Source of the DNA: Mytilus galloprovincialis
Lineage: Eukaryota; Mollusca; Bivalvia; Mytilida; Mytilidae
DNA length: 64,000 nucleotides
Assembly: GCF_965363235.1 (NCBI RefSeq)
Contig: NC_134845.1
Coordinates: 11,594,101 to 11,658,100 of the forward strand
Direction: 5' to 3'
Below are positions 2,125-42,475 of the stretch, piece after piece. Positions within the stretch are counted from its first letter, which is position 1. Each line of letters starts with the position of its first letter. The position numbers were made by a program, and so were the translations under genes. Under the pieces are notes generated by a model, which was given only the letters and a program-made list of their open reading frames with translations, ran no database searches and was not told the DNA's origin.

Positions 2125-2188
2125 ATGGAGGGAATAAACATCTGCATTGTAGCCATATTAGTACAGTTGGATTCGCTATTTATTCTGG
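2125..2188 (+). CDS. Copy A exon 1: signal peptide
   Basis: Starts at ATG 2125 and encodes 21 mostly hydrophobic residues (MEGINICIVAILVQLDSLFI and one Leu) plus the first base of a Gly codon, then donor GTAAGT. Exon 1 of copies B and C has exactly the same length. Confidence 0.8.
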
Positions 2189-5100
2189 GTAAGTGTAATA
2201 TTAAATATACTAGCTATTAGTAATGAAAAGTGATGATGGCAATTAATAACTTAACTAGTTAATGTAACGTAACATATGCATAGTGTCCGTGCGTCTGTTA
2301 CACGGATCTGTGGATCTTATTTTTTTTAAAGCGTCCTTATACTTTGTTATTATTGAATAATAAGAGCGTATGGTACAGAACAGGGTCATATCATGCTTCC
2401 TAAAATATTGAAATCGTTACTATGATATTCAGGAAAACCAACGATCTAATCTGGTTTCTTTGATGTTGTACGAAGTATTTCTGAATAAATATTACACTTT
2501 GAATTTTGGTACATTTTGAGTCACCAGTGCAAATATGAATTGTACGATATAACTAACCAAAAACCAAAATTAAGTTAAACTATTTTTTGTTTCTCTAAAA
2601 CACATTTGTTCTAGTGGCTATGTTTATCAAAACTACAACAAAACATGTGCAGTTTGCTCTGTTTTATTAAAGTTACACTTAATATTTGTAATTTGCTATG
2701 TTAACCAAAACTGACTTTCGTCAACAATATTTAGCAAAATTTACAGTTTCGCATGGTTAGATATATAGTTCTCCAAATTTTGTTATTTTTAAAAGAAAAT
2801 AACACAAATGTCCTATGAATTGAGGCGCCAATGACCATTCAAAACAGCGCAAATGTCTATGTCTATGTCTATAGCCGGTTCGAGGAATAATTGTAACAAG
2901 TGCATGCTAATAAAAACAATCATACTAATTAAAAAGATAGGTAACTTACAGGTAGCTTTATCTAGTTCATGTTTGTCAAGTTGTTAAAAATCTTATTTTG
3001 CTTTTACTGCTTGAACGAATACGGATTTTCGTAAAATTAAACTTTGAATGGTGTTGCATCTCAAAGTCAAAATGTCGGGAATTCCATTCTTGTCCCTGAA
3101 TGGTAGTTTTTCTAATTGTGTATGTCTTTAAAGGAGACGTGACCCAATTTAAAAAAAATTTTTTTTTTTAAATTAATTAATAAATATTGGCCAAAAAACA
3201 TATTGTAATAATTTTTTCTTGTCAAAACCTCATTTAACGGCCTTTTAATGGTCAAAGGATCCAGCGCTTGTCGTAATCTTTGATTTTTAATGAGATACCG
3301 GTCACGTGATCGTGATGACGTCAGTGGATACAAGCTGAAAAAAATGTCTCAATAAGGACGAAGTCGATCATATTTCTGCATAATTAAACAATGGACAGTG
3401 TTGACAGCAGTTTTCAAGGCAACTCTCAAACTTTAGATATATACCGTATCAGTTTGAGCCGTTACTTGTTGAAAATAATCAAGTAGAAGATATAAATTCG
3501 CCATCCGACATTAACGATCTTTCAAGCAATGACGATATAATATATCAATACTATATCAATAATTAATTTCACCAAAAATAAAGATATATTTCTTCAAAAT
3601 GTTTGAGTTTAACAGGATTGAATTACATTTAATAAGACAAAAAGACAGGTCATAAAGAATGTAGGACAGAAAGTCACAGGACAAAAAGTCACGGACAAAA
3701 AGTCACAGGACAAAAAGTCACATTTTATTTTCGAAATTATTTTGAAAAATACAAAATTCTTGATCTATTATATATGAAGTATTAAACTTTGTTAATAAAT
3801 TTTTTTCCATAGATATCAATAATGATCAAATAATTGTTATAAAAACAACATGTCAAAGTGGCTTGGTATCTATAAAATGGCTTCGTTGTAGAATGAATTA
3901 TATCCTTTGCATGATTAAAATTTATTATTTTTTTCATTAATCAAGCTTCATGAAAAATTTCCTAAACTTGCAAATGAATAAATGTAATAAAATAAAATAT
4001 TTCAAGATCATTCTCTTATAATTTAAAAACAATTATCAACTACCGTCATGAATTACCTATCACCTTACCAAGTATGTTGGGTGTAAAATTTGAATTACTA
4101 AAGCTGCCCCCAATAAATGTGTAATAAGTATGACATAACCAGGAAAGGGGGGGGGGGGGTATTAAAAGTAAGATTTAAAGAAAAATATATTCATATGTCT
4201 TTTTCTCCTCCATAATAATCCCATTGAAAATACTCTATTAGTACTGACTTATTTTTGAAAACTAAAACGAGAAATAAAGAAGGTTCACGTTACATAAGTT
4301 ATCAGCAACAGCAAATCTTCCTAATGATTAACCCCGACTGAAATGGTCAGACGACTCCTTATACATATATACATGTAATAGTAATTGTCTTGTATTATGT
4401 TCATTAACATTCTTTGTGCTTTTGTCATGAACTTAAAGTCGATATGTATAACAGATAAGAACACGTTAAATAACAACAGTGATAAGTAATCTAAGATTTA
4501 CAGTTAAAAATCATCCGTCAACTCCTAACATGAATTATTTTTTCTTTCATGACGATTTTTGTACTAATTTTACATTTTTAGCAGAAACAATAGTAACTGG
4601 AGTGATAATTATATGCAATTAAAAGTAAAAACATGAGTAAACAAGACTGCAGTCATCATTGGATTCAGTATAAGAGTTATTTCGCATTTGTTTGTGATTT
4701 TATCTTATAACTTTAAGACTTTAACCCGCAACTTATTAATTTAACACAAATATTCCAGTTGCACTGAAACAGTTTGATAGCTGGAGCACACCTTCAGGTG
4801 CGGGAGTTTCTCACTGCATTGAAGACCCATTGGTAGCCTTCGGCTGTTGTCTAGTCTTTGGTCGGGTTGTTGTCTCTTTGACACATTCAGCATTTTCATT
4901 CTCAATTTTGTTTGGCTTTATAAATATGCGCGTCAGTGATGAGTCTTACGAAGACGAAACGCGCGTATATTGTACTAAATTATAATCCTGGTACCTTTGA
5001 TAACTATTAACACCACTTGGTCGATGCCACTGCTGGTGGACGTTTCGTCCCCGAGGGTATCACCAGCCCAGTAGTCAACACTTCGGTGTTGACATGAATA

Positions 5101-42200: not shown

Positions 42201-42475
42201 ATAGTTCGACATTTGCCTGGTCTTCTAATTATACAAAAGAGGAGTTACAGATTATCATGTCAGAAGAGTTGGAGGATCTTAAAAGAGAACTAAGAGTGCG
42301 AAGGTCAATTCTCACCTCATCACTGAGAAAGTTAAACAGCGCTGGAGATAACAGAACATCATCCAAAAGTATCGGGATAGCGGCGGCAATGTTCCTGATT
42401 ATTGTAGTCTGCCTTATTATATTACTCGACCTTATAAAACTTAAAAATATAAAGGTCAAACGCAAAACGTTTTAA
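33214..42475 (+). CDS. Copy C: membrane-anchored F-type lectin (four exons, 301 aa)
   Basis: Coding exons are 33214-33277, 37150-37383, 39503-39814 and 42180-42475, all introns phase 1 (donors GTAAGA, GTAAAG, GTAAGT; acceptors TTTTAG, TTATAG, GTCAAG). The domain order is as in copy A: signal peptide, F-type lectin domain with WWTVDLG and [15 protein letters not shown], one stalk unit, CQCPC, coiled coil, transmembrane helix. Exons 1-3 have exactly the lengths of copy A. The C-terminal exon is nearly identical to A through the membrane helix but ends six residues earlier, at KRKTF. Substitutions against A are concentrated in the signal peptide and in residues 37-62 of the lectin domain. Probable role is a cell-surface fucose-type glycan receptor (family knowledge plus inference). 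Intron 1 holds a LINE fragment and a long (TA)n tract. Confidence 0.85.
33857..33978. repeat. (TA)n microsatellite, about 120 bp
   Basis: Uninterrupted TA dinucleotides inside copy C intron 1. The open frames across it are artefacts of the repeat. Confidence 0.95.
33985..35080 (-). mobile_element. LINE ORF2 C-terminal fragment in copy C intron 1
   Basis: On the minus strand, broken frames give in order: [19 protein letters not shown], then [24 protein letters not shown], then [20 protein letters not shown], then [18 protein letters not shown] and ELCTFF. This is the post-reverse-transcriptase part of a non-LTR retrotransposon (L1/Tx1-like in my reading), with the usual order of motifs. Several stops and shifts show it is dead. 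Its 3' side abuts the (TA)n tract at 33857. Confidence 0.7.
35688..35830 (+). repeat. Interspersed repeat of the 29510 type, fragment
   Basis: AGTAGAGTTCGGGTTGCTCC, TTCTATGTTGTGTTTTGTCT, CGTCGTTGTCAATTTATTTTC. Confidence 0.5.
36100..36350 (+). repeat. GGTACCAGGATTATAAT-family repeat, copy C intron 1
   Basis: AGTTATCAAAGGTACCAGGA, TTAGTGACGCTCATATCAAA, GATACGGCTAAGGTAATCTA, GATTTTCGAAAAATTCAAAG. Confidence 0.75.
36470..36750 (-). mobile_element. Reverse-transcriptase C-terminal relic, copy C intron 1
   Basis: Closely matches 38630-38920: CATATCCGATATCA, TCAACTCGTGAT, TTTGGAACTCT and TTTGGGAGATGTATATA-like runs. A decayed second copy of the same element. Confidence 0.55.
37150..37383 (+). CDS. 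Copy C exon 2: N-terminal half of lectin domain
   Basis: Encodes [15 protein letters not shown] to YNRADPCC with [13 protein letters not shown], 234 bases as in copy A. Donor is GTAAAG. Read-through would stop after LRFT, as in A and B. Confidence 0.85.
38378..38625 (-). repeat. Interspersed repeat of the 29510 type, reverse orientation
   Basis: GATACCGGGATAATCAAACT, CAACGCCATGGCTAAAAATG, GGGGTGATCTCATGTGCCCC. The most complete copy in the window, beside an RT relic. Confidence 0.65.
38640..39055 (-). mobile_element. Reverse-transcriptase C-terminal fragment, copy C intron 2
   Basis: The minus strand reads [78 protein letters not shown] and [14 protein letters not shown] recognise this as the C-terminal end of a reverse-transcriptase family common in bivalve and amphioxus genomes. 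I cannot settle the clade (LINE-like or Penelope-like). A separate repeat (38378-38625) abuts it. Confidence 0.65.
39503..39814 (+). CDS. Copy C exon 3: C-terminal half of lectin domain and single stalk unit
   Basis: Encodes [20 protein letters not shown] to [19 protein letters not shown] and STDE, 312 bases as in copy A. Sequons at NKS, NIT and NIT are kept. Donor is GTAAGT. Confidence 0.85.
40534..40592. repeat. Poly-C / poly-A simple sequence in copy C intron 3
   Basis: Sixteen or so C followed by an A-rich run with scattered C. Length may be assembly-sensitive. Confidence 0.9.
41690..42060 (+). repeat. CACCGTACGG-family repeat, copy C intron 3
   Basis: AGAAGATGTGGTATGAGTGC, TACGGTCTTCAACAGGGGAC, AACAAACGACAACTACTGAA. 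Ends about 100 bases before exon 4. Confidence 0.7.
42180..42475 (+). CDS. Copy C exon 4: CxCPC, coiled coil, transmembrane helix, short tail
   Basis: Encodes [44 protein letters not shown], the helix [16 protein letters not shown], and the tail [13 protein letters not shown] followed by a stop. It is 18 bases shorter than exon 4 of copy A. Confidence 0.85.

Follow-up and report, generated by a model that had tools for sequence, protein, structure and literature searches.

Is the membrane anchor at the end of a mussel lectin gene peculiar to that gene, or is it a part held in common with others? The question is raised by a stretch of Mytilus galloprovincialis DNA (contig NC_134845.1, positions 11,594,101 to 11,658,100; 64,000 nucleotides, here called the window), in which an initial annotation had placed three tandem copies—A, B and C—of a four-exon gene whose single F-type lectin domain is joined by splicing to a stalk, coiled coil, membrane helix and basic tail. 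That order of parts, with the coil as a coil-like helix, is borne out by the sequence in A and C. We consider it probable that both copies encode a type I membrane protein that carries one F-type lectin domain and catches fucose-type glycans, and that their last exon is a shared cassette, paired elsewhere with many other ectodomains.

The two intact copies

Copy A is an intact four-exon gene on the forward strand (2125–8964), with an open frame of 307 codons and GT/AG ends to its predicted introns; the junctions drawn in the initial annotation (2188/5860, 6093/7407 and 7718/8651) are exact. Copy C, on the same strand, is likewise an intact four-exon gene (33214–42475; 301 codons; GT/AG intron ends). 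All introns are in phase 1 in both copies and exons 1 to 3 agree in length (64, 234 and 312 bases), as had been claimed for the gene as a whole, but exon 4 does not, measuring 314 bases in A and 296 in C, stop included.

Exon 1 of copy A (2125–2188), delimited by its open frame, its GT donor and its homology to exon 1 of copy C (33214–33277), supplies the start codon and a hydrophobic N terminus that we call signal-peptide-like on hydropathy alone. Exon 2 (5860–6093 in A, 37150–37383 in C) holds the N-terminal half of the lectin domain, including the His, RxD and CC of the fucose site and a cation motif, VDGN in A. The C-terminal half, with the third basic residue, lies in exon 3 (7407–7718 and 39503–39814), which runs on into a stalk; that of copy A (7646–7718) is about 24 residues long, rich in Thr and provided with one N-glycosylation sequon. 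Exon 4 (8651–8964 and 42180–42475) is the anchor cassette, which in A ends with a stop codon at 8962–8964 and in C has a shorter basic tail. Hydropathy and alignment place the predicted membrane helix of A at I268–L286 (8842–8898), directly before an invariant Asp287. Because of the signal-like start, this helix and the basic end, a type I orientation is predicted.

The lectin domain is recognised by Pfam model PF22633, which is not specific to F-type lectins (E-value 2.4e-13 and 51 bits in A, 2.3e-16 and 60.6 bits in C; cut-off 27.8), as well as by PF00754 (39.8 and 46.9 bits; cut-off 28.2). Six matches among PDB sequences were led by FBP32 (9.7e-15) and included two fucolectin-related proteins, a chain named LECTIN (1k12), which we take to be the eel lectin AAA, and two Sm-hPAF chains. 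Alignment with 1k12 shows the CC pair kept, together with the His, the RxD Arg and the final Arg, and one extra residue in each of two loops. The fucose triad is given as HX24RXDX4(R or K) in PMC5712786; its three basic residues align with those of 1k12, which itself counts 26 residues from His to Arg, against the printed 24. The cation motif h2DGx is present as VVDGN in A and AVDGD in C. Copies A and C thus share with 1k12 and FBP32 the lectin domain, the H...RxD...R positions, the adjacent CC and the small-hydrophobic DGN cation motif, and differ from them in having a single domain, the one-residue loop insertions, an anchor exon behind the lectin and a sugar binding that is predicted. According to the same review, insertions and deletions in these loops are tolerated, yet departures from the motif may change specificity or abolish binding (PMC5712786), so that fucose binding by A and C is likely but unproven.

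Comparison of A with C, a single pair with few sites, gave an omega of 0.42 (0.29–0.61) over all coding sequence: 0.43 (0.15–1.40) for exon 1, 1.01 (0.49–2.50) for exon 2, 0.39 (0.18–0.84) for exon 3 and 0.14 (0.05–0.31), the lowest of the four, for exon 4. Between these two copies, then, the anchor exon is strongly constrained, whereas no constraint is detectable in the first lectin exon, where most of the sugar site resides.

The anchor cassette and what lies upstream of it

When the genome (1.38 Gb in 331 contigs) was searched with exon 4 of copy A, the best 150 of 356 candidates, all with an E-value of at most 2.4e-4, formed 72 clusters at a joining distance of 200 kb. A distant anchor used as query gave 322 candidates, and 114 of the best 150 lie at places shared with the first search; the union comprises at least 186 places on contigs C1–C14, some of the 36 added by the second search matching the coil and membrane part only. 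We therefore read the last exon of A and C as belonging to a large membrane-anchor cassette family, not particular to the lectin. Its features—a CxCPC motif, a coil-like helix, a juxtamembrane SAxDxRxSSxxIG, a membrane helix closed by Asp and, on the cytoplasmic side, a short basic terminus—are fitted by the rows of both copies. Across 36 aligned anchors the R, G and D at positions 58, 65 and 83 are invariant, and C2, C4, D56 and S60 are nearly so. A phase-1 acceptor precedes the anchor in 21 of the 23 rows that could be confidently scored, A and C included (by a score of our own; of the 36 aligned rows, 10 stand in long frames and 3 short ones fell under the score limit).

The cassette could not be assigned to a known family. 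No Pfam model reached its cut-off on the anchors scanned: that of copy A alone gave Stevor at 18.5 bits (cut-off 25.4) and HTH_CodY at 16.4 (cut-off 27), and two others likewise remained below. An anchor profile run against PDB sequences produced 19 weak matches, mostly to seven-helix receptors (best E-value 0.045), which we took as chance, and there was no match in phage records. No described family was found in Pfam or in the titles and abstract openings of the literature searched, other sources lying outside that search.

Neighbouring domains were counted on the same strand, with an anchor of the first list (the best 150 of 356) downstream within 10 kb. Among the matches listed, 10 of 130 PF22633 matches have an anchor downstream, against one with an anchor upstream and none on the opposite strand; extending the limit to 20 kb gives 10, 1 and 1, respectively. 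The corresponding figures, again among the matches listed, are 8 of 150 for FAMeT (Methyltransf_FA), with none upstream or opposite, and 12 of 129 for WSC (11 anchors), with one upstream and none opposite. Together these three families account for 29 of the 150 listed anchors. FAMeT exons are themselves very numerous in the genome (best 150 of 190 candidates).

Further ectodomains were met at single loci, where exons over Pfam cut-offs lie upstream of the anchor: Ig (L056, L062, L064, L065), TSP1 (L055, L071), Sushi (L070) and, at L053, PAN with a C-type lectin; a FAMeT exon stands upstream at L057. At L070 (C8:40366500-40371000) a long frame that by eye resembles reverse transcriptase lies between the Sushi exon and the anchor exon. 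Eleven loci carry a Ser/Thr-rich stalk and the anchor in one uninterrupted frame (L024, L033, L039, L040, L043, L044, L045, L047, L048, L049 and L069), and these mucin-like cases consequently need no assumed splice; the S+T fraction, over up to 150 residues before CxC, is 0.34–0.61 in the ten measured, L045 having been judged mucin-like by eye with S+T unmeasured.

The upstream stretches were not drawn at random but chosen, with no more than a few taken from any one cluster and long open frames added. Of 18 loci for which about 4.5–5.5 kb were fetched (L050–L057, L062–L071), 12 have a recognised or mucin-like upstream part, a count that takes L050 and L069 to be mucin-like and admits L052 on a WSC match that falls short of the cut-off. 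Among 11 long-frame stretches (L039–L049), eight are mucin-like by eye, the others being L041 and L046 (S+T 0.27 and 0.25) and L042. The initial annotation had suggested a small family of surface receptors evolving by local duplication: A and C do stand as local duplicates, but the anchor also occurs behind many other ectodomains, within a set of at least 186 places.

Alternative explanations, possible mode of action and known systems

One alternative, which we regard as doubtful, is a single origin of the cassette behind one ectodomain, the present variety stemming from swapping of ectodomain exons and not from movement of the anchor. The anchor tree bears on it from both sides. It holds 58 rows after removal of two duplicates, 38 of them labelled, over 97 columns and with 26 of 55 inner branches open; the labels of FAMeT and of many lectin rows were set by proximity, and L048, labelled FAMeT, also has an in-frame Ser/Thr-rich stalk. 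Ectodomain labels change 15 times on this tree, against a minimum of 6 and a shuffled mean of 22.2, and a count as low was reached in 0 of 200 shuffles; such clustering is what replacement of ectodomains would leave. A single clade of the FAMeT-linked anchors is nevertheless rejected (p-AU 0.006), which supports re-pairing of anchor and ectodomain for FAMeT, though not for lectins, and does so without giving a direction, as the tree cannot say which part moved. A single clade of window anchors and the lectin anchors of C12 is not rejected (p 0.566).

That the lectin exons mainly encode a secreted lectin, through intron retention or another last exon, with the anchored product a minor form, seems to us unlikely. 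It can draw on the stop codons just past the exon-3 donor, since a retained third intron would end both copies there (7719–7726 in A, STDDSK and stop; 39815–39822 in C, STDESK and stop), making a soluble form possible, and on 120 of the 130 listed PF22633 matches, for which the next 10 kb downstream contain no listed anchor; the anchor exon nevertheless has the lowest omega of the four, and the order lectin-then-anchor prevails in the neighbour counts. Less probable still is that the apparent fusions reflect a mere proximity of unlinked exons, the anchors near ectodomain exons being small genes in their own right or leftovers. Six of the 18 fetched loci do lack a recognised upstream domain (L051, L054, L063, L066, L067, L068; 10 frames scanned with none over cut-off, the remaining frames judged by eye), but the uninterrupted frames of the mucin-like loci, the bias of strand and order in three domain families and the phase-1 acceptors all speak for linkage.

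Several results count against our own reading of a widely shared anchor that holds a lectin at the surface. About 60 anchors were individually read out of the at least 186 places matched. Stops fall inside the matched stretch in 13 of the 150 rows of the first search, copy C being among them because its match extends beyond its stop. Outside the window, the closest paralogue of exon 3 (L058, 65% identity) has no anchor within about 5.5 kb downstream, and at two further lectin loci, L060 and L061, none was seen in some 5 kb downstream. None of the 142 listed PAN_1 matches lies within 10 kb of a listed anchor, so the case for PAN rests on the one locus given above, and PAN_1 is ruled out as a common partner. 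The lectin-linked anchors as one clade are not rejected (p-AU 0.067), a result that also suits replacement of ectodomains. The coil and any oligomer are read from the sequence, and the possible soluble lectin belongs here too.

If the anchored lectin is nonetheless what A and C encode, each would hold a single F-type lectin domain out from the cell surface on a short stalk. Cysteines at the head of the coil-like helix may link two or more chains, and such linkage would raise avidity by letting weak single sugar sites act jointly. The most likely use would be the capture of fucose-type glycans, whether borne by microbes, by food particles or by neighbouring cells. With the cytoplasmic end so short in A and C, signalling, if any, would pass via a partner, and the invariant Asp, at the inner edge of the membrane, is a candidate point of contact. 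The cassette, lying behind phase-1 introns, most likely came to stand behind lectin, FAMeT, WSC, Ig, TSP1, Sushi, C-type lectin and mucin-like ectodomains by exon shuffling together with local duplication. More tentatively, and with rather less than even confidence, we suggest that it could be what stays constant in a large repertoire of molluscan receptors: a standard oligomerising chassis with a conserved juxtamembrane signature and an inner-edge Asp, possibly a contact for an adaptor or protease, beneath faster-evolving recognition parts.

Exon-shuffled extracellular modules typically have phase-1 borders and set different recognition domains in a common frame. The mussel cassette resembles them in its phase-1 borders and varied recognition domains, and differs in that the shared module is a terminal membrane anchor. 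Membrane F-type lectins as such are already known: in PMC5712786, transmembrane domains are listed with those found alongside F-type domains, for example in Drosophila. The anchored form is to that extent less notable than the initial annotation, which regarded F-type lectins as mostly secreted or soluble, had made it. Drosophila furrowed and CG9095, in the account of PMC5712786, likewise combine an F-type domain and a predicted membrane helix in one protein; they carry C-type lectin and complement-control domains, whereas the anchor of A and C is a separate cassette common to other ectodomains, a distinction drawn from description. The PTC2 and GRC clusters of the snail Biomphalaria offer a molluscan likeness, again by description only, in that PMC7494358 presents them as clusters of polymorphic single-pass transmembrane proteins thought to act in recognition; unlike A and C, these are described there as having no known domain beyond the membrane segment, and PTC2 as lacking homology outside gastropods. 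F5/8C proteins are reported as abundant in mussel transcriptomes (PMC5712786, PMC5549309).

Should the anchor family hold at the protein level, many unnamed surface proteins of this animal, with unrelated ectodomains, would form one class that can be found with one profile, and the hunt for signalling or shedding partners could be narrowed to the single conserved segment made up of the juxtamembrane part and the membrane helix. There would also be a hint at the way in which an animal that has no antibodies equips its cell surfaces with such a variety of recognition domains.

Copy B and other elements of the window

The initial annotation had described a head-to-tail triplicate, and this stands for the intact copies A and C but not for B (16263 to about 25663), which is broken and has no anchor exon; three working copies are thereby ruled out. 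As its sequence reads, copy B is a pseudogene, though an assembly error may contribute. The left part of its exon 1 (16263–16318, forward strand, as are its other exons) is interrupted by an inserted element of about 850 bases (16319–17166), which has TA on either side and inverted, though imperfect, ends and splits the exon. Exon 2 (22696–22926) has lost one codon and has an altered donor context. The exon 3 remnant (25132–25663) has a one-base deletion whose frameshift gives rise to an in-frame TAG, an altered donor and a stalk grown by 51-base repeats.

Homology of B to A breaks off near 25687 and restarts at 26359; no anchor was found between these points, in the interval expected to hold that exon (25688–26358), and an anchor profile run over the window matched only the two anchors of A and C. 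The 51-base (17-codon) repeats lengthen the Thr-rich stalk of the pseudogene over 25414–25668, and growth of this sort could be the kind of change that turns a short stalk mucin-like.

Elsewhere in the window, an uninterrupted frame of 372 codons (45960–47078, forward strand) encodes a transposase of Tc1/mariner type, with DDE_3 and the Tc3_2 helix-turn-helix (HTH) over cut-off. Two stretches about 3.77 kb apart (27247–27971 and 31016–31727) are 95–97% identical in ungapped pieces, closer to one another than the lectin gene copies are, and there are minisatellites at 54333–54830 and 63123–63485, their units about 39 and 40 bases long, respectively.

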